From NCBI RefSeq assembly GCF_002286915.1, contig NZ_MVOG01000004.1, forward strand, positions 62,001 to 126,000: 64,000 nt of DNA, in the 5' to 3' direction. Under the pieces are notes generated by a model. That model was not told the DNA's origin and did not search any database. It saw only the letters and a program-made list of their open reading frames with translations. Shown in pieces: positions 5,440 to 41,501 of the stretch; positions within the stretch are counted from its first letter, which is position 1, and every line of letters starts with the position of its first letter. This DNA is from Bifidobacterium italicum. Its GTDB lineage: Bacteria; Actinomycetota; Actinomycetes; Actinomycetales; Bifidobacteriaceae. Made by a program: the position numbers and the translations under genes.

Positions 5440-5879
5440 AAGGACAATACGTCGCGAATGTTTGCCGCCAACGACTCCGAAGCCTTGCAGTTCTTCGCCA
5501 TGCCCACGATGGCGTTCTTCTCGAAACCGGCGGAGATCATCTCGTCGCGAGCCCAGTCTTGACGACTGCGCATCACGCGAATCACGTCCTTAAGGTCGTT
5601 GCTTATCGCGGCGCCATCGTTGTTGATCGTTCGATACCGCAGCAGCGGCTCCTCTTCCTGCGGAGTCGGGAAAGAACGGACCAGACTGCCGAAAGGCACA
5701 TGGAGGGCCTTGCTCAACTTGGAGACCTTCGTGAAGGAGAGTCGCAGCGGCTCGTCGGAATCCAGCCAGCTGGGCAGCTGTGCAAGGTCGCCGTTGGTCG
5801 CGGCCACTGCGCCGGCGTCAGCGTCGCTGCTGCGCACGGCCCACTGCAGTACACGCGGTTGTACCGTCAAGGTCGCCAC
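5418..5879 (-). pseudogene. N-terminal (HTH-linked) half of the split XRE-ImmA protein
   Basis: 153 codons, GTG start at 5879 with an excellent AGGAGGTGA ribosome-binding site. The part around LSFTKVSKLSKALHVPFGSL matches the end of the XRE/helix-turn-helix region (…K…A..L.VPFG.LF) of XRE-ImmA/IrrE proteins. RQDWARDEMISAGF matches the linker helix. It runs into a stop at 5418 after SLWMIVTS, where the family should continue into the peptidase now encoded in the other frame. If made, it would be a DNA-binding fragment without protease activity. Confidence 0.65.
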
Positions 5880-6013
5880 TGTTCACCTCCTTCCTGGCTC
5901 TTTCGGAACGGTAAAGCACTCTCAGCACTCTCAATGATAAGGAAGACAGCCGGGTCGGACAACAACGCGGAATGTTGTACGAAACGCGTGATGATGGTAT
6001 TGGGCGCGAAGAT

Positions 6014-6120
6014 TCAATCAAGCCGTCATAGGGCGTGTTGATGTGTTTGAGTGTCTTCCGGTTCTGGCGTTGCCGGTAGAGGTAGTCGTCTCAGGCGCTG
6101 GCGGTCTACGTCAGGTTCAT
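6014..6120 (-). pseudogene. yoeB/txe toxin remnant with two Trp-to-stop mutations
   Basis: Reading down from the ATG at 6120, 3 nt after the antitoxin stop, gives MNLT-stop-TASA-stop-DDYLYRQRQNRKTLKHIN. YoeB toxins have MxLxWTxxAWDDYLYWQxxDRKTLKRIN. Both stops stand exactly where the family has tryptophan: TAG at 6108-6106 and TGA at 6093-6091, each one base from TGG. After HIN the sequence jumps to TPYDGL, as if about eight codons were deleted, and then loses similarity. The RNase toxin is certainly dead. The match is from memory of the family consensus. Confidence 0.75.
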
Positions 6121-6123
6121 CGG

Positions 6124-6384
6124 TCAGTTCTCGTCGAGCAGTCCGTGCTCGTGCAGGTCGCCATGCTGCGCCTGACGCATGCCGCGGAGGATCTTCTCAA
6201 CCATCGCCGGATTGCGGTAGATGCGCACCGTCTCCATCAGGCTGTCGTAGTCGGACTGGTTCATGACGATGATGTTATCCTCGGCGTCCTTGTTGGTGAC
6301 GAGCAGCGGCTCCGCGTCCTCGCGGATCTGACGGATGCTCTCCTTGAGATTGTTGCGGAACGAACTGTAGGTTATCGCGCGCAT
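6124..6384 (-). CDS. yefM: YefM/Phd-family antitoxin, now orphan
   Basis: 86 residues from the ATG at 6384, preceded by AAGGAG at 6 nt. MRAITYSSFRNNLKESIRQI, then PLLVTNKDAEDNIIVMNQSDY and SLMETVRIYRNP are classic YefM. YefM is a DNA-binding antitoxin that represses its operon and neutralises YoeB. Its toxin partner directly downstream is a pseudogene, so it is an orphan. It may persist as a regulator or as an anti-addiction gene against YoeB carried elsewhere. Confidence 0.9.
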   Translation of the reverse strand: MRAITYSSFRNNLKESIRQIREDAEPLLVTNKDAEDNIIVMNQSDYDSLMETVRIYRNPAMVEKILRGMRQAQHGDLHEHGLLDEN

Positions 6385-7010: not shown

Positions 7011-8171
7011 TTATCGGTCGCGCGCCTGCTTCGCCTGCTGGAAGCGTTCCTGCAGCGCCTGCTGGATCAGATGGATTCGGGATTCCGCCATGAGACCATA
7101 TTCACTCAGATGATGGGCGACATCTTCGGGCCAGTCGTCCAGCGCATCGAGATCGTAGCGGCCCCAATCGCGTATCAGATGCAGCTGTCTGCGCGCCGTG
7201 GGAGATTTGGTTGTGACGAAGAACGGTCGGGTCCTGTAGTCCGCGTTGCTGATGCGCAGTTCACCAGCCCACAGCGAAGCGCCCGTATCGAAGAGGGGAG
7301 CGGGCCGCACGCGCAGGGTCTCCACATCGCGGATCAACGCGAAATTGTTGTAGTGGCGGTCGATGTTGCGCATAAGCCAGTCGATCAGCAGCCAGTCGTC
7401 GGTGGCGTCGGACGTCTCCTGCTCGTCGGCGCCCAATGCGGCTGCGGCGGCGATCCACTGGTCACGGGCGGACAGACGGTTGTTCCGCTTCGCGGTACCC
7501 AACGCCTGCCATGCGCTGATCAGCTCCTCGGTGTCCGAGAGCATCTCCGCGCAGATCGAGACGGGACGGTTGTCGTATTCGCCGAGCGTATACCGTACGG
7601 CGGGAATGTGCAGACGAGCCGCAAGACGGGACGCGATCAGCTCGTTGATTGGTTCCTGTCCGGTGCGACCGGCTTTGATGAGCAGTCGTGTCCCATCAGC
7701 CCCGACCGTCCATCGTTTCGGCAGATCGCCGCCGGTGGAGGCGTCGGGGGCGTTAAAACTGAACCGATGCGACGACGAGCGTTCGGACAGCAGCGCATAT
7801 CCGAGCTGTTCGGGGAAGGGATTGTCGAAGAAATTGACGTCCTCCCAGCGCACATCCTCGTCCGCATCCCGCACCCAGTATTGGTCGGACAGGCTCAGGC
7901 CTCGGGTGCGGTCGAGCAGTTCGACGGTATTGGAAAGACGCAGGTCCGCAAGCACGCGGGCGATGCCGTCGCGTGTGGAGGGAATCGCCCTTCCTCGCCA
8001 CCAGGAATCCACGCGATGCGCGTAGACGGCGTATTTGCCATGCGTGGTGAACTCCGGTGGCATGCGCTGCGCGTCGATGATGGAGGCGGCGCCCACGGCA
8101 TGCCCGGTGCGCTCGTCGAAATCGAACGCCAGGGTCTCGTGGGTGCGGTTCATGATGATTCTGCGCCGCAT
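7011..8171 (-). CDS. HipA-like serine/threonine kinase
   Basis: 386 residues from the ATG at 8171, which has GGAGG 9 nt upstream. The ATG at 8177 would put that site too close. The catalytic loop RNIDRHYNNFALIRD and metal-binding APLFDTGASL match HipA/CtkA-type kinases. LLIKAGRTGQEPINELIASR carries the ATP-contacting lysine and helix glutamate. HipA kinases phosphorylate tRNA synthetases or other targets and cause growth arrest. No HipB-type antitoxin is adjacent, so it is either a stand-alone family member or paired in trans. All catalytic motifs look intact. The toxin assignment is inference from family and location. Confidence 0.75.
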   Translation of the reverse strand: MRRRIIMNRTHETLAFDFDERTGHAVGAASIIDAQRMPPEFTTHGKYAVYAHRVDSWWRGRAIPSTRDGIARVLADLRLSNTVELLDRTRGLSLSDQYWVRDADEDVRWEDVNFFDNPFPEQLGYALLSERSSSHRFSFNAPDASTGGDLPKRWTVGADGTRLLIKAGRTGQEPINELIASRLAARLHIPAVRYTLGEYDNRPVSICAEMLSDTEELISAWQALGTAKRNNRLSARDQWIAAAAALGADEQETSDATDDWLLIDWLMRNIDRHYNNFALIRDVETLRVRPAPLFDTGASLWAGELRISNADYRTRPFFVTTKSPTARRQLHLIRDWGRYDLDALDDWPEDVAHHLSEYGLMAESRIHLIQQALQERFQQAKQARDR

Positions 8172-9375: not shown

Positions 9376-11337
9376 ATGACTGCATTGGAAAAGCGATATA
9401 AGAGATTCGGGACCATAGGCATATGTTGTATAGGGGCTTTGTCCTTGCTGTGCGGCTTGATCGCTCTGCCGGCGGTCGCTGAGGAGGCGGCTCCTGACGC
9501 AGCTGGAGCTGATGTCAATTCGGCGAAGTCGTTCAGGATGCCTGATGCCGATCCGAGCTTGGAACCGGATATTGGCGAACTGGATCGTATCGCGCAAGGA
9601 CTGGCCGGTAAATACACCATCCGCATCCCAGCACTGACCGAGGCGTCAAACGGTGATCTGCTGGCTTCCTACGACAGGCGTCCGCCGGCCGCCAATGGAG
9701 ACATTCGAGGAGGCGATGCGCCTAATCCGAATTCGATTCTGCAGCGGCGCTCCACGGACAAAGGAAAAACTTGGGGCGAGGAGATCGTGATCGCGCAGGG
9801 GGCATCAGGGCAGCATCCCCAAGGCTATTCCGATCCCTCATATGTGGTGGATCATGATACGGGCACCATCTTTAACTTCCATGTGTACAGTCAGATAGCC
9901 GGCGTTGTGGCGAACGCCCCTGCATATACCTATACGCCGGACGGCGCCATCGATGAGGCGAACGAGCATGTCCTGAATCTCGGTCTGTCTGTATCCACCG
10001 ATGATGGGCACACATGGAAGAATCGCATCATCACCGATCAGGTGCTCCGTGACGCCGCGAAACGTTACGGCCTCACCTCCTGCTTCATGACTTCGGGCGG
10101 TGGCGCCCAAAAGGTGCAGGAGCCGCACAGGGGACGATTGCTCAATCAGCTGACATGCGTCGTCAAAGGTAACCTCAACACCGTGGTCGCCGGCACGGTG
10201 TACTCCGACGATCACGGCGCCTCATGGCATTTGGGAGAGCTGACCTCCAACGTGACGGATGCCGGCAGGTGGAGCTTCAACGAGAACAAGGTCGTCGAGC
10301 TTTCGGATGGCCGGCTGCTGCTGAATTCCCGCGTGGCGAATCAAAACGCGAACGGATATCGCATTCAGGCCGTATCGGATGACGGCGGCGAACACTGGAA
10401 CACGGATTATCGGTCGACTGCGCCGTATCTGCGGGACTCGGGGAACAATGCCGACATCATCCGCGCCTATCCCAATGCCCGACCCGGTACGCTGCGTTCG
10501 CGGGTGCTGCTGTTCTCCAACACGAACGATGAGGACGGAGGCCGCCAGCGTGGCGTCATCAGTATGTCCGTGGACGATGGGGCCACATGGCCGTATACCA
10601 AGGAATTGCGGTCCAATGGCACCGGATACACCTCGATGACCGTCCAGTCAGACGGACGCATCGGCCTGTTGATGGAACCCGAGATTGGAGGTTGGAACGA
10701 TGTCGGATACCAGTCGTTCACAATGCGGTGGCTGCAGCCCGACCTCGTCACAGAGCTCAGGATGACGCCGCCGGAACACGTCGAAGCAACTGTCGGACAA
10801 CCGGTCAACATTCCCTTGGGCGTCGAGCACAACGACCCCTCTCTCAAGGACAGCGCCACGCTTGAGGGGTTGCCGGCCGGCTTGTCCTATGATGACAAGA
10901 CTCAGGCGATTGTCGGTACCCCGACCGACGGCATTGACGAAGTTCGGCAATACCATGCGACGGTAGTCGTGACGGAGGAAGACGACGGCACGGGCATGCC
11001 GCGTACGGCTGCGGCTTCATTCGAACTGACGCTGCATCCATCGCCGACGCGGACGGAATCGACCCGGACCGATGAAGGCAAGACCCAGCAGCCTGAAGTG
11101 TCACGCGAGAACGCAACGCCGAACACGAAGGGCGATGCGGATCGGAAACAGCGCGAGAACTCGCATGCATCCGGCAAGGATGCCGATGGCGCTGCAGCGC
11201 AGAATGGGGGTCTGGCGAGCACAGGAGCGTCATCGGTGTGGTTGTGTATGGCGGCCGTGCTGTCGGCGCTGCCGGGGGCGTGGATGCTGAGAGCCGCCAA
11301 GCGTCCCGCAGGGCGCCGATGCCGTAATCTGCGATAA
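9376..11337 (+). CDS. Cell-wall-anchored exo-alpha-sialidase
   Basis: 653 residues. Releases terminal sialic acid from host glycans (mucin, milk oligosaccharides) at the cell surface. A signal peptide covers residues 1-35, with cleavage after ALPAVA. The sialidase arginine motif YTIRIPALTE is near 81. Five Asp-boxes follow: STDKGKTW near 127, STDDGHTW near 207, SDDHGASW near 276, SDDGGEHW near 334 and SVDDGATW near 397. An Ig-like putative-binding domain occupies about 470-560 (VGQPVNIPL, GLPAGLSYD). A charged linker then leads to a sortase signal, LASTG near 613, with a hydrophobic helix and an RRCRNLR tail. This GH33 layout is known from mucin-using bifidobacteria. No sialic acid transport or catabolism genes lie nearby. 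Confidence 0.93.
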   Translation: MTALEKRYKRFGTIGICCIGALSLLCGLIALPAVAEEAAPDAAGADVNSAKSFRMPDADPSLEPDIGELDRIAQGLAGKYTIRIPALTEASNGDLLASYDRRPPAANGDIRGGDAPNPNSILQRRSTDKGKTWGEEIVIAQGASGQHPQGYSDPSYVVDHDTGTIFNFHVYSQIAGVVANAPAYTYTPDGAIDEANEHVLNLGLSVSTDDGHTWKNRIITDQVLRDAAKRYGLTSCFMTSGGGAQKVQEPHRGRLLNQLTCVVKGNLNTVVAGTVYSDDHGASWHLGELTSNVTDAGRWSFNENKVVELSDGRLLLNSRVANQNANGYRIQAVSDDGGEHWNTDYRSTAPYLRDSGNNADIIRAYPNARPGTLRSRVLLFSNTNDEDGGRQRGVISMSVDDGATWPYTKELRSNGTGYTSMTVQSDGRIGLLMEPEIGGWNDVGYQSFTMRWLQPDLVTELRMTPPEHVEATVGQPVNIPLGVEHNDPSLKDSATLEGLPAGLSYDDKTQAIVGTPTDGIDEVRQYHATVVVTEEDDGTGMPRTAAASFELTLHPSPTRTESTRTDEGKTQQPEVSRENATPNTKGDADRKQRENSHASGKDADGAAAQNGGLASTGASSVWLCMAAVLSALPGAWMLRAAKRPAGRRCRNLR

Positions 11338-11374
11338 TCCAACGTGCACAGACCGCAGGATGCGGTCCGCCGGA

Positions 11375-12472
11375 TTATTCGGCCGACGGCTGCGCGAAGC
11401 CCTCGACGACCCGCATCGCGTCGATGATCTGCTCGGCGGTCACGTCCGGCACCGCCGCGTGGAACGGCGAGCCCTCGGCGGCGGCGAAGTCGGCCACAGT
11501 CCGGAGGTTGTCGTCGGTGAACGGCAGGTTCATCTGCCTGAACGAATGCGGCAGCCCGATGCGGTCGTAGAACGGCAGCAGCGCCCGCGCCTCGTCCTCC
11601 TTGCCTTCGGTCACGAGCTGGACCATGACGCCGTACGCCACCTTCTCGCCATGCATCGTCTCGGCCGACCCGGGAATGCGCGTCAGGCCGTCGTGCACCG
11701 TATGCGCGCCGGATTCGCGGGCGCGCACGCCGCCGAAGCCGGCCACGGTGCCGGCCAGACCGATGATCGTGTCGATCAATGTGCGCACGTGCTGATCGTC
11801 GTACTTTCCGGCGCGCAGCGCTTCGAGCGCCGGCTCGCTTTCCTCGAGCAGCGTGTCGCGTATGAGGCGCGCGCTGTGCCGGGACAGTTTGTCGAAGACG
11901 GTCAGGTCGTCCGCCTGCGCGAACACCGGGTCGGACTCGTAGAACTTCGCAAGCGTGTCGCCGATGCCGCCGATGAACTTCTCGGACGGCGCCCGCGCGA
12001 TCATCGCCGCGTCGACGAGCAGCGCCGTGCTGTTCCTCGGATGCACCGGCACGCCGAGGAAGCGGTGCTCGTCGTCGTAATCCACCGAATACGGCGAGTA
12101 GGCGGCGCACGCGCAGGCGAGCGTCGGCACGATGACGAGGTCCGCGTCGAGGATCTCGGCGACGTTCTTCGCCGTGTCGGACAGTTTGCCTGCGCCGATC
12201 GCGACGATCGCGTCCGCGTCGAGCGCCTTCGCCTGCTCGGCGAGTTCGCGCGCGTTGCGTTCGCTCGACGTGCCGTCGTAGCGCAGCACCGGCGCGAAGA
12301 ACTCGTCAGCGCCGGTGTAGTCCAGGAACGCCTGCGCCGACTTGACACCGGTGATGACGACCGGATGGTCGTAGTCCTCGAGGTACTTCGGGACGATCTT
12401 GGCGACTCCCGGATCGCTCACGTAGCGGTTCGGGCCGGGGCGGACATCGGTGTCTTGGACGAAGGTGGCCAT
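11375..12472 (-). CDS. gldA: Glycerol dehydrogenase-type iron/zinc alcohol dehydrogenase
   Basis: 365 residues from the ATG at 12472. NAD-dependent oxidation of glycerol to dihydroxyacetone, or the reverse, in the cytoplasm. The NAD-binding region has AIVAIGAGKLSDTAKNVA and LVIVPTLACACAAYSPYSV. Metal ligands are GGIGDTLAKFYE (Asp), ESGAHTVHDGL (His) and ETMHGEKVAYG (His), matching the GldA arrangement and usual length. It stands alone, ending 37 nt past the sialidase stop in convergent orientation. Related dehydrogenases reduce other small carbonyls, so the physiological substrate is not certain. Confidence 0.88.
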   Translation of the reverse strand: MATFVQDTDVRPGPNRYVSDPGVAKIVPKYLEDYDHPVVITGVKSAQAFLDYTGADEFFAPVLRYDGTSSERNARELAEQAKALDADAIVAIGAGKLSDTAKNVAEILDADLVIVPTLACACAAYSPYSVDYDDEHRFLGVPVHPRNSTALLVDAAMIARAPSEKFIGGIGDTLAKFYESDPVFAQADDLTVFDKLSRHSARLIRDTLLEESEPALEALRAGKYDDQHVRTLIDTIIGLAGTVAGFGGVRARESGAHTVHDGLTRIPGSAETMHGEKVAYGVMVQLVTEGKEDEARALLPFYDRIGLPHSFRQMNLPFTDDNLRTVADFAAAEGSPFHAAVPDVTAEQIIDAMRVVEGFAQPSAE

Positions 12473-12945
12473 CGGAAGCTCTTCTTTCTTGTATCTGGTG
12501 TTTCCTCCGTTGGGGAAACGGTTGTTGGCCTGTCCGCGCATCGTATGCGGCGGACGGCGTTCGGGGCGGCCCGGCGTTCGGCTGCGGCGGGGTGTTCTGA
12601 TGGAACATGGCGCCGCATGCGGTCGGTTGCGGACCTGATGCGTTGCTGGCGACGGCGAAGAGCTTGTGGCGTACCGACGCGTTGGTGGCCATACTATGAA
12701 GCCCGACGAACGGCGTTCGCTTCAAGTGGAGCAAAGGGCGGCGAGCACCGTATCTGTCTAGTTTCGCGATGCTCCGGCGCATCTGCGGGACCGGCGCCGA
12801 AACCGGCAGGGCGAGGCTGCGGACGCCGTTCCCGTGCGCGGATACACTCACGGGGATACACTATGGGATGGCGTACGTCCGGGCCGGATCCCGCCGGATT
12901 CGCGACGCGACGCGACGAAGGACGACGAAAACGAAAGAGGAGACC
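12473..12945. other. Divergent intergenic region between gldA and luxS
   Basis: 470 nt between divergent gldA and luxS. I looked for a SAM- or SAH-type leader before luxS and did not find one I can support. Promoters for both genes must lie here. No repeat or hairpin stands out. Confidence 0.4.
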
Positions 12946-35669: not shown

Positions 35670-36821
35670 TCATATGCGGCGCTTGAAATAGGCGAAGAGA
35701 TCGCGCTCGCGCACGCACAGCGACGCGGCCACGGCCCCGGCAACCGCACCCAAAGCGGCGGCGAGCATCGGGCGCAGCGTCAGCACGACGATCTGCTGCG
35801 GCGCGGAACCCGCCCACAGATGCATGACGGCCAGCGGCAACGGCAGGCACAGCACGATGGCCGCGAACGTCCAGCTGGCCGTCTCCAGCATCATCTGGAG
35901 CACCAGAGCCGGTTTCGGCACACCGCAATGCAACGCGGAAGCCAATTCGAGACGCCGCGTCCACACGGCGACGAAGCCCAGCGCCAATGCGACGCCACCG
36001 GCCAGCGCGGGCATCCATGCCGTTGCGCGCGATGAGAACAACGCGGAGGAGTCAAGCCCGGCTCCGAACCTCGTGTTGAGCTGGCGTACGGTGGGGCGGT
36101 TGTCCCCGTCGTCGGACACGGTGCCGACGCTGAGCAGCGCCAACGATTCGATCGAATCGGGCACGGGCCATGTCTTGATCAGGCATTCGTCGAATACGCC
36201 GTCCCGGGGCACCGGCTGCACGACGGCATAGGTCGCATTGGAGCTGCGTCCGTCCTCGGGGGAGGGGTAGACCCCGGCGATCGTCGCCGGCGTGTCGTCG
36301 GCGAGCCTCGCCGTCTGTCCGCTTGTCAGGCCGAGCGTCTCGGCGGCCTGTCCGGACAGCCAGACACCGCTCGATTCGGAGCCGGTAAGCGCGCGTGTGT
36401 CGCGGCTGTTCGCCGAGGCCAGCGCCTGCACCGCGCCCGGCGTCGCCTCCAGCAGCGGCAGCGACGTGGAGGGAAGCACGGCGAACGATATGCGCGAATC
36501 GGCGGTCCGGATCGCACCGGCGGCATGCACTCCCGGGGCGTCGGCGAGTGATTCGCAGGATCGCGCGTCGATGCGGCCGGGATATTCCACGACGTAGGTC
36601 GAGGCCCCCGAGGAGACGTAGTCGTCGATGCGTTCGTCGATCGAGCGCAACTGGAGCAGCTCGGCGCCCGCGGCGGTGAACATGATGGCCATAAGCGCCG
36701 CCGCGTACAGCAGCGCATGCGTCGTGCCGGAGAGGATGTCGCGCATGGCTTCGCCGGTCACGCCGCGCAGTCGCATCTGCGCTCGTTGTGCGCGACCGTG
36801 CCCGTTTCGTGCGGCGCTCAT
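35670..36821 (-). CDS. FtsX-like ABC permease of the bacteriocin locus
   Basis: 383 residues from the ATG at 36821, which overlaps the ATPase stop (ATGA). One membrane helix near residues 24-45 (HALLYAAALMAIMFTAAGAE), a large extracellular domain, then three C-terminal helices (AWMPALAGGVALALGFVAVW, SWTFAAIVLCLPLPLAVMHL, MLAAALGAVAGAVAASL). This is the MacB/FtsX layout. With the ATPase and adaptor it forms a MacAB-like exporter or protection system. It is the last gene of the bacteriocin cluster. Sequence similarity to named MacB proteins is weak. Confidence 0.7.
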   Translation of the reverse strand: MSAARNGHGRAQRAQMRLRGVTGEAMRDILSGTTHALLYAAALMAIMFTAAGAELLQLRSIDERIDDYVSSGASTYVVEYPGRIDARSCESLADAPGVHAAGAIRTADSRISFAVLPSTSLPLLEATPGAVQALASANSRDTRALTGSESSGVWLSGQAAETLGLTSGQTARLADDTPATIAGVYPSPEDGRSSNATYAVVQPVPRDGVFDECLIKTWPVPDSIESLALLSVGTVSDDGDNRPTVRQLNTRFGAGLDSSALFSSRATAWMPALAGGVALALGFVAVWTRRLELASALHCGVPKPALVLQMMLETASWTFAAIVLCLPLPLAVMHLWAGSAPQQIVVLTLRPMLAAALGAVAGAVAASLCVRERDLFAYFKRRI

Positions 36822-37465
36822 TGGTAGTCCCTCAGATCGATCACGTCGGTGCATGCGTCGCGGGTATCCGGATCGTGGGTGGCGATGACGACGATGACGC
36901 CGGACCGACTCAACGCATGAAGATGGTCGTTCACTTCCCTCGCGGTGTGCCGGTCGAGCTGCGCTGTCGGCTCATCCACAAGCAGCAGCTGCGGTGAGGT
37001 GGCGACGCCGCGGGCGAGCATCAGACGTTGCGCTTCGCCTCCGGACAGGTCGCAGAACCTGCGCATGGCAAGGGATCCAAGTCCAAAAGCGGCGAGCAGC
37101 CCAAGCGCGTGGCGGTTCGCCGCCTCGCGACGCTCACCTCGTGCGATGAACGGCAGCGCCACATGGTCAAGGGCGCTGCGGTGGGCGACGCCATGCGGGT
37201 TCTGCTGCACCCAATGCAGCTGTTCGCAATGCACGCGCTCGACGCTTCCCTCCAACGGCGCGATCCATCCGGCGATGATCGAGAGCAACGTGGACTTGCC
37301 CGAGCCGGACGGTCCGATCAATGCATAGACGTGGCCTGCGTCCAATCGCCGCGTGAGTCCGTGGAACAGCATGTCCGCACCGTCATGGCCCCTCTGGTTC
37401 GCATGGAAGGCGTGACCCACATCATGCAGCAGGACCATTGCATCCGTCTTGTCCGCCGCGTTCAT
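36818..37465 (-). CDS. ABC transporter ATP-binding protein (LolD/MacB type)
   Basis: 215 residues from the ATG at 37465, which overlaps the adaptor stop by ATGA. Walker A is ALIGPSGSGKSTLLSIIAGW. The Q-loop is WVQQNPHGVAHRSALDHVAL, the signature CDLSGGEAQRLMLARGVA, Walker B LLLVDEPTAQLD and the switch VVIATHDPDT. It powers the permease encoded immediately after it. Such systems export peptides or protect against antimicrobial peptides. Here export of, or immunity to, the lactococcin 972-like peptide is likely. Confidence 0.9.
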   Translation of the reverse strand: MNAADKTDAMVLLHDVGHAFHANQRGHDGADMLFHGLTRRLDAGHVYALIGPSGSGKSTLLSIIAGWIAPLEGSVERVHCEQLHWVQQNPHGVAHRSALDHVALPFIARGERREAANRHALGLLAAFGLGSLAMRRFCDLSGGEAQRLMLARGVATSPQLLLVDEPTAQLDRHTAREVNDHLHALSRSGVIVVIATHDPDTRDACTDVIDLRDYQ

Positions 37466-38616
37466 CGGCAACTCACCGTCTTGTCGGCGGGTACGTCAAC
37501 ATGCTCCAATGTGCCCGATTGCGGGGAGACCATCGATCTTCCCAACTGTGAGGCCACGATCGTCACCTGCTGCGGCTCGCCGTCGACGGTCACGCAGCCT
37601 TTCCCGCTGCTTACATCGGTCAGTGCCGACGGAGGGATGATCGATACTGCGCGCGGTTCCGCCAGCGACCACTGATAGATGACGTCGACGGGCGAGCCGT
37701 CTGCGACGGCGGATTGCTGTGATGATGCGCCCGAGGACGACGATGCCGAAACGCCCGATCCGCTGCCGGAGAGCATCGACTGGTATTCGTGGCTGGCCGC
37801 GATTGCGTTGAGGAAAGCCGGATCGTTCATCTGTGTGACATCGTCGTCTATTTCGAAGGTTTTGTCGGCTACCGTCACCGTGCGTTTACCCGCGGCCGGC
37901 TGCCCGTCCGCATTTTCGGAAGTGCGGATGATGATGGCGTTGGTGATGATCGGCGCAGTCTGCGCGATGCCGTCTCCTGCATGGACCTGCGTACCGACTC
38001 GCACCGAGCATTGACGGATCGTCATCGCCTTGGCGGGTTGCCACAGAATCTGAGCCGGATCGAGGTTCCATCCGTTGTCCGCCGTGATGAGGGGAGCTCC
38101 GGTCTTCTCGGCGAGCGCGTTGAACGCGGCGATGGAGTCGGAGGAGAACGTATCCGTATCGGGGGCCGCATATCCAAGGTCACGCAGCGCGTCATGCAAC
38201 GAGCGCACATCGTTCCCCTGTGTGCCGATGGCGAGCGGCCGATACAACGGGATGCTGGTATGCAGCGACAGCACGGCATGATCGTTGATGGAGAACATCG
38301 ACGTTCCCGATTGCAATGCGGCGCCGGCGGTGCAGGTGGAGGATGTGAGCGTCCCGTCCTGCGGCATCTGCAATGTCGAGGCGTCGCTTTGGGCGAGACG
38401 GAAGGTCACGGCGCGCCGATCGTCGAAGACGCCGTCCTCGACGGTCATCGTGCCGGCTGTCGTCTTCGAATCAAGGTCCGAGGGAGGGACGGGCCGTATC
38501 AGGAGCAATGCAAGCCCCATGCCGATGGCGAGCATGACCGCGCAAAGCAACACGATGACTGACATGCTGATACGCGGTGTGTGGCGCATGATCCTTGGGC
38601 GCGTGTGATTGCTCAT
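37462..38616 (-). CDS. Membrane-fusion/adaptor-like protein with peptidoglycan-binding segment
   Basis: 384 residues. An N-terminal signal anchor (SMSVIVLLCAVMLAIGMGLA) is followed by an extracellular part. PLAIGTQGNDVRSLHDALRD, then DTFSSDSIAAFNALAEK, resembles a peptidoglycan-binding domain of type 1. Around it, TLTSSTCTAGAALQSGTSMF and VRVGTQVHAGDGIAQT recall the lipoyl-like halves of HlyD/MacA adaptors. A Ser-rich linker lies near 295-315. Its stop overlaps the ATPase start, so the three exporter genes are coupled. It likely bridges the permease and cell wall. Confidence 0.7.
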   Translation of the reverse strand: MSNHTRPRIMRHTPRISMSVIVLLCAVMLAIGMGLALLLIRPVPPSDLDSKTTAGTMTVEDGVFDDRRAVTFRLAQSDASTLQMPQDGTLTSSTCTAGAALQSGTSMFSINDHAVLSLHTSIPLYRPLAIGTQGNDVRSLHDALRDLGYAAPDTDTFSSDSIAAFNALAEKTGAPLITADNGWNLDPAQILWQPAKAMTIRQCSVRVGTQVHAGDGIAQTAPIITNAIIIRTSENADGQPAAGKRTVTVADKTFEIDDDVTQMNDPAFLNAIAASHEYQSMLSGSGSGVSASSSSGASSQQSAVADGSPVDVIYQWSLAEPRAVSIIPPSALTDVSSGKGCVTVDGEPQQVTIVASQLGRSMVSPQSGTLEHVDVPADKTVSCR

Positions 38617-38652
38617 GGGGGTGGCTTCTCTCGTGACGTTGCGGATTCGGCC

Positions 38653-39279
38653 TTATGCGTTGGGGTTGGCGTTGCAGGCCCAGTAGGCTGGTGATTTCTC
38701 GGCGTCGTAGTCGGAACGTTGCTCGTTGAAGTACTTGCCGAAATACTCGTCGTCGAGGTCGGGGTCGGTGACGATGCGCTTGTAGTCTTCCGCCGTCATC
38801 GTTTCGTCGGCGATCCCGTGGCGCTTGAGACAGTCGACAAGCGGCGTGACAGTGTCTTCGCCAGAGGCATAGCCCTCGACGCTATGAAGGATTTCGATGT
38901 ATGGCAAGGCGGTTCGTGTTTCACATTGTTTGGCGTCCTTGAGCGCCTGCTCGCCGCTTACGCCTACGGGGGCATGTTCGCTGCGAGCACCGGCATTCCC
39001 CTCAAATTCGACTTCGTATCCTTTTTCTTCAAGACAGTTTGAATACATTTCTCTGACTTGATCGAATTCGGCATCGGTAATATGTTCATCGATGAGTATC
39101 TTTCGTACGACATCGGATTGTGTCATATCGTATGCTTTTTGAAAAGTGACGGAGTTTGCCCCTGAGAATGTAACACTATCCTTGTTGAAATCTACATCTG
39201 TGGACTTGGAGTTTTGTCCACAACCTCCAAAAGCAAGAACTATGATAAAGGAAGTAAATATATAAATTGTTTTTTTCAT
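38653..39279 (-). CDS. Lipoprotein paralogue 1 of the bacteriocin locus
   Basis: 208 residues. Lipoprotein signal with FIIVLAFGGC (lipid-anchored cysteine near 20). Its last 45 residues (from YKRIVTDPDLDDEYFGKYFN) are identical, apart from the final residue, to lipoprotein 2 encoded 1.5 kb upstream. The middle is more diverged but keeps VVRKILIDEHITDAEFDQ. No known domain recognised. Position between the bacteriocin gene and its exporter suggests an immunity or sensing role. It follows the prepeptide gene after a hairpin and has no obvious promoter of its own. Confidence 0.75.
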   Translation of the reverse strand: MKKTIYIFTSFIIVLAFGGCGQNSKSTDVDFNKDSVTFSGANSVTFQKAYDMTQSDVVRKILIDEHITDAEFDQVREMYSNCLEEKGYEVEFEGNAGARSEHAPVGVSGEQALKDAKQCETRTALPYIEILHSVEGYASGEDTVTPLVDCLKRHGIADETMTAEDYKRIVTDPDLDDEYFGKYFNEQRSDYDAEKSPAYWACNANPNA

Positions 39280-39316
39280 GATGGGTATCCCTGTGGTATG
39301 GCTAAGTGAGGATAAT

Positions 39317-39342
39317 GAGGGCGAGATAAGTATCTCGCCCTC
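39317..39342 (-). terminator. Hairpin between bacteriocin gene and downstream genes
   Basis: GAGGGCGAGATA and TATCTCGCCCTC are perfect 12-bp arms around a 2-nt loop, 26 nt after the prepeptide stop. No T-tract follows, so it is more likely an attenuator or an mRNA 3' stabiliser that keeps prepeptide transcripts more abundant than the downstream lipoprotein and exporter genes. Confidence 0.6.
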
Positions 39343-39368
39343 TGATTCATGCTGATGGGGAAAGCTTC

Positions 39369-39656
39369 TTACTTGAAGAAATCAGCTCCAAAATCCAGCA
39401 CGGGCAATCCTCTAGAATACGCAGAGGACTTATGATAGGTGGCCGCAGTCTCTCCCCTGAAGGTCTGGACAGAGCCGTCCGGATACTGGGCTTGGTGGTA
39501 ATGACGAGAATAATAAGGGACGAAGGTGGCCATGGAATAATCCAGATAGACCACGCCTTTTCCGTACACTTCATACGCTTGCGCGATGCCGGTGAATCCG
39601 AATAACGATCCCAGTACCGCAGTGGCAGCCAGCAGCTTGCGTGTCTTTGACTTCAT
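39369..39656 (-). CDS. Lactococcin 972-family bacteriocin precursor
   Basis: 95 residues from the ATG at 39656 (AAAGGAGAGG upstream). A Sec signal peptide (KLLAATAVLGSLFGFTGIAQA) is probably cut after AQA, leaving about 68 residues, close to the 66 of lactococcin 972. The mature part is rich in Tyr, His, Gly and Ser: VPYYSRHYHQAQYPDG, then ATYHKSSAYSRGLPVLDFGA. The YYS-HYH pattern resembles the S-Y-h-H core of that family. Such peptides block cell-wall synthesis through lipid II. Neighbouring adaptor/ATPase/permease genes fit a bacteriocin locus. Assigned from recalled family features, not a search. Confidence 0.7.
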   Translation of the reverse strand: MKSKTRKLLAATAVLGSLFGFTGIAQAYEVYGKGVVYLDYSMATFVPYYSRHYHQAQYPDGSVQTFRGETAATYHKSSAYSRGLPVLDFGADFFK

Positions 39657-39685
39657 CGTCAATCCTCTCCTTTCTTTGATAATCG

Positions 39686-39707
39686 AGGAACACATCGTTA
39701 TGTTCCT
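39686..39707. promoter_or_regulatory. Inverted repeat upstream of the bacteriocin gene
   Basis: AGGAACA and TGTTCCT are separated by 8 nt, 30 nt before the prepeptide start. The half-site resembles part of the conserved element found upstream of the response regulator and lipoprotein 2 (AGAACAT), so it may be bound by the same regulator. Confidence 0.4.
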
Positions 39708-39830
39708 TATCTTCTAGTATTGCATGTCTATGATTTGTTTGTTGGTGTTTGTAGCAGTTCTATGACATCGCGTGCGGTGAAGACTGATATGCTATACCCG
39801 CGAAAATGCGAATTGAAATGCATGCTGTCA

Positions 39831-40493
39831 TCATATGTATTTATGTTTATTATCTTCTTGAAATCTATATATAGCTGCTGTAATTGTATCTACTTGCAGT
39901 TTTTCCATCGCTCGATGTGCAAAGGTATAGACGGTGCTTAGTGAAACACCAAGCTGATTCGCGATTTGTTGGGTCGTGTTGTGTCGGGAATAGAGGTGCA
40001 GAACCTGTGCTTCCCGTACGCTGAGCGGTTTCTGCTGTATGGTTGTGGTGCCTGCAAGGTCCGCATGTGCCTCCGTTGTATTCTTGAAACGCGCGGGGTC
40101 GATGCTTTTCCCGACGGCTAGGAGGGATAGGGCGGATGGGAGCCGTTTAGCGAGATGCCTCTTCGCTATGATGCCTTGTGCGCCGGCCTGCGCCAACACT
40201 TCGATATATGACTCACACATCCCAGATGACATGCCGAGAATGCTTATAGAGTCTGTTTCGGACCGTATCTGACGGCAGATCTCCGGAGCGCTCGCGATGT
40301 CGAATGACATATCGAGAAGAAGCGCTTGAGGTTGTTGTGCATTTCGCCCATTGAGGCAACGCTGCAATGCTTCATCGGACGACGATGTTTGCCAGAGAAG
40401 CGTACACAGATGAGGTCGGCCGCCTAGCCATGATCCGAGCGACTTAAGACACCAGATATCATCATCCATAATGGCGATGGTTGTCTTCCTCAT
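39831..40493 (-). CDS. Orphan NarL/LuxR-type response regulator
   Basis: 220 residues from the ATG at 40493, preceded by GGGAGGG. Receiver domain: acidic pocket IAIMDDDIW, phosphoacceptor aspartate in ALLLDMSFD, and IIAKRHLAKRLPSAL with the conserved lysine. C-terminal LuxR helix-turn-helix: LSVREAQVLHLYSRHNTTQQ, then IANQLGVSLSTVYTFAHRAM. There is no histidine kinase gene beside it, so the partner is elsewhere or absent. It lies directly upstream of the bacteriocin gene on the same strand and probably controls it, lipoprotein 2 and itself through the conserved 33-nt element. Confidence 0.9.
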   Translation of the reverse strand: MRKTTIAIMDDDIWCLKSLGSWLGGRPHLCTLLWQTSSSDEALQRCLNGRNAQQPQALLLDMSFDIASAPEICRQIRSETDSISILGMSSGMCESYIEVLAQAGAQGIIAKRHLAKRLPSALSLLAVGKSIDPARFKNTTEAHADLAGTTTIQQKPLSVREAQVLHLYSRHNTTQQIANQLGVSLSTVYTFAHRAMEKLQVDTITAAIYRFQEDNKHKYI

Positions 40494-40554
40494 GCTGTCC
40501 CTCCCCATGTTGTTTTCGTCTTTGAAACCTGAAGTCATTGTAGGAGAACGCCAA

Positions 40555-40587
40555 ATGTTCTGTCCATTGGTCTACCCATTTCGGGTA
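40555..40587 (-). promoter_or_regulatory. Conserved 33-nt element upstream of the response regulator
   Basis: Read on the minus strand it contains TACCCGAAATGGGTAGA, an inverted repeat, and then ATGGACAGAACAT. It is 29/33 identical to the element at 41469-41501. Both lie about 60 nt before the next gene. Probable response-regulator binding site or promoter. Confidence 0.65.
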
Positions 40588-40784
40588 GGTGATTAGATAT
40601 GTTGCCATTCTGCGCTCTCTGCCCCTTCATCGAACTGCTCAACACCGTGCAATACGTTTAATGAAGAACACAACCACAATGAAGCGTTGCAACGATTACT
40701 ACTACCCTCTAGATTGCGCGCCGAACTCGTGGCGCAGCGCCATGAGCGCCAGCCGGTGGCCGCAGCCGTTGAGGAGTATGGCAA
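40588..40784. other. Interval between the response regulator and lipoprotein 2, no gene supported
   Basis: About 200 nt without a credible gene. It carries a 12-nt repeat, AATGAAGCGTTG (40679-40690), that recurs at 41457-41468 beside the second regulatory element. This suggests that a longer segment was duplicated with the lipoprotein. Confidence 0.35.
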
Positions 40785-41411
40785 TCAGGAGTTGGGGTTG
40801 GCGTTGCAGGCCCAGTAGGCTGGTGATTTCTCGGCGTCGTAGTCGGAGCGTTGTTCATTGAAGTACTTGCCGAAGTACTCGTCGTCGAGGTCGGGGTCGG
40901 TGACGATGCGCTTGTAGTCGTCGGCGGTCATTGCCTGATCGGCGATATCATGACGCTTGAGGCAGGCGACAAGCGCATCCACGGAATCGGAGTCGGGATC
41001 TTGCCCATCGAGCTGATGCAGCTGCTCCACATAAGGCAACGCAGTGTCTGCGACACACTCTTGTATGTATTCATCTATTTGATCGACGCTGACTCCGGGA
41101 GGAAAACGTTCGCTTCTTCTGCCGTCCGTTCCCTCGTATTCCACGGTGGCGCCCTTTTCCCCGAGGCAGTCGGCATACAGTTGTCTTATCTGGTCGAATT
41201 CGGCATCAGTGATATGCTCGTCAATCAATATCTTCCGGACAACATCTGACTTCGTGGAATTGTATGCCTTTTCATAGGTGATGGAGTTAGCTCCTGTGAA
41301 CGTGACATCGTTCTTGTCGAAATCGACCGGTTGTGCGGATTGTGACTGCCCGCACCCTGCCAGCATGGCCACGATGCACAATGCCGATAGTGAGGTGAAT
41401 GTCTTTCTCAT
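40785..41411 (-). CDS. Lipoprotein paralogue 2 of the bacteriocin locus
   Basis: 208 residues from the ATG at 41411, the same length as paralogue 1; an ATG at 41432 would add seven codons. Lipobox AMLAGC. Shares KILIDEHITDAEFDQ and the whole C-terminus from YKRIVTDPDLDDEYFGKYFN. The DNA of the shared 3' end is also nearly identical, pointing to recent duplication or gene conversion. It has its own regulatory element upstream. The cysteines (DC or EC near 80, 115 and 155) are conserved between the copies and may form disulfides. Function unknown; immunity is a guess. Confidence 0.75.
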   Translation of the reverse strand: MRKTFTSLSALCIVAMLAGCGQSQSAQPVDFDKNDVTFTGANSITYEKAYNSTKSDVVRKILIDEHITDAEFDQIRQLYADCLGEKGATVEYEGTDGRRSERFPPGVSVDQIDEYIQECVADTALPYVEQLHQLDGQDPDSDSVDALVACLKRHDIADQAMTADDYKRIVTDPDLDDEYFGKYFNEQRSDYDAEKSPAYWACNANPNS

Positions 41412-41468: not shown

Positions 41469-41501
41469 ATGTTCTGTCCATCACTCTACGCATTTCGGGT
41501 A
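41469..41501 (-). promoter_or_regulatory. Conserved 33-nt element upstream of lipoprotein 2
   Basis: Minus-strand TACCCGAAATGCGTAGA, three variable bases, then ATGGACAGAACAT. It lies 57 nt from the ATG at 41411, compared with 61 nt for the copy before the response regulator. This spacing also supports the 41411 start. Confidence 0.65.

Follow-up and report, generated by a model that had tools for sequence, protein, structure and literature searches.

In a 64,000-nt stretch of the Bifidobacterium italicum genome (contig NZ_MVOG01000004.1, positions 62,001 to 126,000; hereafter the window), seven genes on the minus strand between positions 35670 and 41411 form what we consider, with moderate confidence, to be a cassette for a Sec-secreted bacteriocin with a lactococcin 972 (Lcn972)-type fold, in which lipoproteins and a wall-anchored ATP-binding cassette (ABC) system would provide immunity. 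This reading is built on features computed here, namely gene content, conservation, purifying selection on the peptide gene, the predicted fold of an orthologue of the peptide, the equivalence of its slot with that of a genuine Lcn972-family peptide, the loss of the peptide with its partners kept and a duplicated promoter element. All seven genes were confirmed and, in coding order from 41411 to 35670, they encode lipoprotein 1, a response regulator, a 95-amino acid (aa) peptide, lipoprotein 2, an adaptor, an ABC ATPase and a permease.

The 95-aa peptide (39369-39656, minus strand), proposed as a bacteriocin precursor from its conservation, the selection on its gene and the predicted fold of its orthologue, has a K/R-rich start, a hydrophobic core and an AQA cleavage site, after which a mature peptide of 68 aa is predicted (39369-39575, minus strand; 7.8 kDa, isoelectric point 7.0), containing 10 Tyr and 3 His. 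This agrees with the Sec-exported peptide of about 68 mature residues postulated in a preliminary description of the locus. The orthologues are likewise composed of a Sec signal and a mature part, with 66-69 residues as in the Lcn972 family. Conservation of the peptide extends to at least six other Bifidobacteriaceae, where it adjoins the same lipoprotein, adaptor, ATPase and permease genes: orthologues at 38-46% identity with these partners were found in B. cuniculi, B. apri, B. thermophilum and genome G069, and two genomes of another genus of the family have more distant ones. The whole gene set is kept together in the first four and in G171 and G173. Between B. apri and B. thermophilum the ratio of nonsynonymous to synonymous substitution rates (dN/dS) of the peptide gene is 0.12, and therefore we regard it as a functional gene under purifying selection. 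A scan of the contigs of the genomes with the single peptide sequence as query gave no match; with the peptide alignment as query, the B. apri, B. thermophilum and B. cuniculi genes were recovered. A match in G107 (L016) was rejected as an orthologue, having no start codon.

The kinship with Lcn972 proposed in the preliminary description stood in part, in the predicted fold and in the gene context, and did not stand at the level of family models and profiles. Using AlphaFold2 on the mature B. thermophilum orthologue, with an alignment of nine members of the peptide family that included no Lcn972 sequence, we obtained an all-beta sandwich with a predicted local distance difference test score (pLDDT) of 94.9 and a predicted template modelling score of 0.80. 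When 941 PDB chains were realigned to this model with VIA-align, the first rank was taken by Formosin D (9hkj; Z 7.1, 64 of 69 residues, 2.4 Å) and the second by lactococcin 972 (2lgn; Z 5.0, 56 residues, 2.7 Å), with the reservation that a Z below 8 may reflect the common beta-sandwich arrangement. These two are the only chains found in the PDB by phmmer with Lcn972, whose mature sequence was taken from pBL1. Members of the Lcn972 family can have a common fold at 18% identity, as reported for mediterrocin (PMC12345188). The model thus suggests that the peptide family probably adopts an Lcn972-type beta-sandwich.

Several further points weigh against this kinship. The window peptide matched no Pfam or NCBIfam model at E-values up to 10, PF09683 and TIGR01653 of the Lcn972 family included, so that the search with hidden Markov models (HMMs) called for in the preliminary description ended in the lack of a family match, one half of what it had itself named as speaking against the claim; Lcn972 itself scored 55.5 bits in the same kind of scan. 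Nor was any PF09683 match found anywhere in the B. italicum genome. The profile-profile alignment by hhalign of the peptide family with 15-31 Lcn972-family sequences was not significant, with a score inside the range given by column shuffling, and the Trp residues of the relatives are missing from the window peptide. By sequence, the window peptide is no formal member of the Lcn972 family. On the structural side, the full-length window peptide was modelled with a pLDDT of 60 and its fold search was uninformative, which leaves the fold to be transferred from the B. thermophilum orthologue, 38% identical to it; the Foldseek E-value for 9hkj was 2.5, not significant, and 2lgn was tied at its Z of 5.0 with the third-ranked chain, an unrelated domain with Z 4.8.

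The gene context provides the second line of evidence. PF09683 matches were present in 35 of 189 Bifidobacteriaceae genomes, above the family cut-off in 24, and 18 of these loci were read. In nearly all of them, a permease of about 660-740 aa (TIGR01654-like in several loci) and an ATPase are encoded downstream of the peptide. The exception is locus L100 (G072:C20), whose peptide matches TIGR01653 (43.9 bits, cut-off 32.1) and PF09683 and is followed by homologues of four kinds of window protein, the lipoprotein (6e-38), the adaptor (5e-96), the ATPase (2e-97) and the permease (4e-108); genes for a regulator and a kinase lie upstream in divergent orientation. In L100, therefore, a genuine Lcn972-family peptide fills the same slot of the cassette as the window peptide.

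The partner genes are widespread: of the 189 genomes, 85 were matched by the adaptor profile and 91 by that of the lipoprotein, often with several copies in each; elsewhere in the class, the lipoprotein is rare, with matches in 5 of 344 other genomes. To describe what occupies the slot, 60 further loci were read along with nine earlier ones, and only slot clusters were used from a clustering of small open reading frames (ORFs) that had also pooled antisense and regulator ORFs. The contents vary, with the window-type peptide, a 'YPVSSGS...W...A.QD' type, true Lcn972 and other short Sec peptides, and many cassette loci have no recognisable peptide. The 'QD' type comprises 11 members, two loci of the window's own genome (L017 and L018) among them; those of these peptides that were scanned matched no known family, and homology between the window type and the 'QD' type was not significant in profile-profile comparison. 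Tentatively, and with somewhat less than even confidence, we propose that Bifidobacteriaceae carry a widespread, unnamed class of modular bacteriocin cassettes, in which a fixed immunity chassis would be combined with an exchangeable short Sec-secreted protein. The chassis would consist of cysteine-conserved lipoproteins, a wall-anchored adaptor, ATPase, permease and usually a two-component system, and the payloads would include the window type with its predicted Lcn972 fold, true Lcn972 and the 'YPVSSGS...QD' type.

As regards individual loci, L017 (G000:C3:73000-89000) of the window's own genome is a second cassette, with a 118-aa Sec peptide (9500-9856, minus strand), three related lipoproteins, adaptor, ATPase and permease genes (10011-12894, plus strand), genes for two response regulators and an ORF that probably encodes a kinase. 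L018 (G000:C4:19000-32060), likewise of this genome, has a pair of Sec peptides (5839-6234, minus strand, and 7271-7681, plus strand), each adjoining a related lipoprotein, with no adaptor nearby. The Lcn972-family peptides of L107 and L108 (G035 and G070) have a second, divergent relative directly downstream. Four family lipoproteins lie in tandem in L174 (6322-9634; G029) and three, two of them adjacent, in L175 (G062), in both cases with no adaptor in the stretch read; these clusters are possibly immunity-only arrays.

The peptide gene was found to be lost in two genomes and interrupted in a third. In G014 (L176) and G100 (L177), about 300 bp with the peptide gene are missing, the DNA to either side being 84-90% identical to B. 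apri, and the genes of the lipoproteins, adaptor, ATPase and permease are still open. In G069 (L014, 8407-8619), the reading frame of the peptide is interrupted by a TGA where a tryptophan is expected, and lipoproteins and pump are intact. The partner genes are thus kept after peptide loss, as immunity predicts, and pneumococcal loci for streptococcin B have similarly lost scbA and kept scbBC (PMC11796350). A dedicated exporter is not needed by a peptide with its own Sec signal. Judged from these sequences, a role of the pump and lipoproteins in immunity or detoxification probably fits better than one in export, which makes the name 'exporter' given to the pump in the preliminary description doubtful.

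The persistence of the set after peptide loss is also what would be seen if it were an envelope-stress detoxification module directed against foreign wall-active peptides, with the small protein as a decoy, a signal or a sensor ligand and no toxin. Such a module would be consistent with the two-component system that adjoins most relatives and with the commonness of the adaptor and lipoprotein set, many-copied and often lacking a recognisable peptide. We consider it unlikely, however, in view of the genuine Lcn972-family bacteriocin in the slot of L100 and of the orthologue's predicted fold, which is that of a bacteriocin family. Less probable still is a dedicated export function, whereby the adaptor, ATPase and permease would export the peptide, or release it through the wall after Sec, like MacAB-type pumps with folded substrates: the tight ATGA coupling of the three genes, the wall-binding adaptor and the MacB-like permease would suit it, but it is opposed by the Sec signal of the peptide itself and by the pump genes of G014, G100 and G069, which have stayed intact despite the loss or interruption of the peptide gene. 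That the peptide is a small surface or host-interaction protein unrelated to bacterial competition, such as an enzyme inhibitor or glycan binder, is very improbable. Small beta-sandwich proteins do have many roles, and the fold list includes, with Z near 3, the tendamistat-like 1hoe and carbohydrate-binding modules; but the peptide is coupled to lipoproteins and a wall-binding pump, interchanges with Lcn972 in the same slot and has Lcn972-family fold matches whose Z exceeds that of those chains by 2 or more.

For the bacteriocin cassette that we favour, we infer an antibacterial activity, lipid II as a target, an immunity role of the partners and binding by the regulator, according to the following scheme. 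The 95-aa product would be exported by Sec, cleaved after AQA and folded outside the cell into an Lcn972-type beta-sandwich. By analogy with Lcn972, the mature peptide may bind a wall precursor, e.g., lipid II, on competing Gram-positive cells and so may block wall or septum synthesis. The lipoproteins on the producer membrane, together with the adaptor, ATPase and permease, would shield the producer, either by capture of the peptide or by its removal from the target; the adaptor would extend into the peptidoglycan. The NarL-type regulator would act at a 33-nt element that overlaps the -35 of two promoters, those of its own gene and of lipoprotein 1.

All seven genes were run against Pfam and NCBIfam. 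Lipoprotein 2 (38653-39279, minus strand; 208 aa), the proposed immunity protein, and its paralogue lipoprotein 1 (40785-41411, minus strand) are 64% identical, in line with the two related lipoproteins described before, and the start of lipoprotein 1 assigned there, at 41411 (MRKTF), was retained. Four Cys, one of them in the lipobox, are the invariant residues of their family. The adaptor (37462-38616, minus strand) is of the membrane-fusion type with a divergent PG_binding_1 segment at about 38140-38220; the window protein scored 11.9 bits against this model, below the cut-off of 23, and PF01471 was detected in 9 of 39 homologous adaptors, with a best E-value of 2.5e-8. The ABC ATPase (36818-37465, minus strand) is MacB/LolD/FtsE-like, with ABC_tran in Pfam at 84.9 bits, above the cut-off, and the MacB/FtsX-like permease (35670-36821, minus strand), of less than 400 aa, matched MacB_PCD at 18.4 bits, below the cut-off of 27. 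Overlaps of 4 bp (ATGA) join adaptor to ATPase at about 37465 and ATPase to permease at about 36821; the organisation as one unit described earlier was supported. Searches of solved structures by sequence with the adaptor, lipoprotein and peptide families found no relatives.

The regulator (39831-40493, minus strand) is of the NarL/LuxR type, with Response_reg and GerE domains, and has 220 aa from a re-assigned start. The 33-nt element is present in two copies: the first (40555-40587, minus strand), upstream of the regulator gene, contains the palindrome TACCCGAAATGGGTA followed by a -35-like TGGACA, and the second (41469-41501, minus strand), upstream of lipoprotein 1 and with TACCCGAAATGCGTA at the corresponding place, is 88% identical to it. 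On the coding strand, these sequences are followed by the -35-like TGGACA, an 18-nt spacer and a -10-like hexamer, and the two copies rank first and second among the promoter-like matches of the region. Nowhere else in the B. italicum genome did the 17-nt core match with zero or one mismatch, and the element is absent upstream of the peptide gene. Since the -10-like hexamer of the regulator gene ends at 40537, the start of this gene lies most likely at 40493 (MRKTTIAIMDD) and not at 40538 as previously assigned. These elements suggest that the regulator probably activates its own gene and lipoprotein 1. Its earlier designation as an orphan is appropriate for this strain, in which no histidine kinase gene adjoins it, but not for most relatives, which pair it with a kinase.

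Compared with known systems, the locus resembles those of the Lcn972 family (PF09683, TIGR01653; 2LGN, 9HKJ) in the Sec signal, the 66-69-residue mature part, an ABC pump in a compact locus and the small beta-sandwich, predicted for the orthologue of the window peptide. It differs in that the window peptide has no sequence or HMM match and in that the canonical TIGR01654 (DUF1430) permease and ATPase are replaced by lipoproteins and the adaptor, ATPase and MacB-like permease, a partner set unusual for the family, as the preliminary description had said of the adaptor. The streptococcin B (scbABC) and mediterrocin loci also pair a Sec-secreted Lcn972-type bacteriocin with adjoining ABC genes, and in pneumococcus the bacteriocin gene has been lost naturally and the B and C genes kept, much like the peptide and partner genes of G014 and G100 (PMC11796350); unlike the window, these loci have a DUF1430 permease, no lipoproteins and no wall-binding adaptor, and scb is under the control of competence or of a ComR homologue. 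With MacAB-type tripartite pumps whose adaptor carries PG_binding_1, the cassette shares the LolD/FtsE-like ATPase and, judged from window matches below the cut-offs, probably the peptidoglycan-binding adaptor segment and the MacB/FtsX-like permease, but the window-type set is tied to cysteine-conserved lipoproteins and short Sec peptides, and its adaptors and permeases fall mostly below Pfam cut-offs. BceAB and YsaDCB, the latter from L. lactis (PMC7438565), likewise combine an ABC pump and a two-component system against wall-active peptides, with another permease architecture and without the lipoproteins and adaptor added in the window.

Lcn972-family peptides are already known in Bifidobacterium, as Blon_0434 and Blon_1750 of B. 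longum infantis (PMC4289311), and our literature search found no paper describing the cassette. If the proposed reading is true, the Lcn972 kind extends beyond HMM detection, and bifidobacteria, with few gene-assigned bacteriocins, would gain a common class of secreted antagonists. A bacteriocin-like substance, thermophilicin B67, is reported to be made by B. thermophilum RBL67 (PMC3642284; PMC3295705). As the genome of B. thermophilum JCM 1207 (L020) carries the window-type locus, the window-type peptide is a candidate, unproven, for this activity.

Two observations concern the history of the lipoprotein genes. In the window, their 3′ ends (38655-38735 and 40790-40870) are nearly identical in DNA, which suggests a recent duplication or gene conversion. 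Between B. apri (L013), B. thermophilum (L015) and G014 (L176), the lipoprotein genes have zero synonymous difference, despite a permease dS of 0.66 between B. apri and B. thermophilum, a contrast that indicates mosaic recombination within the locus.

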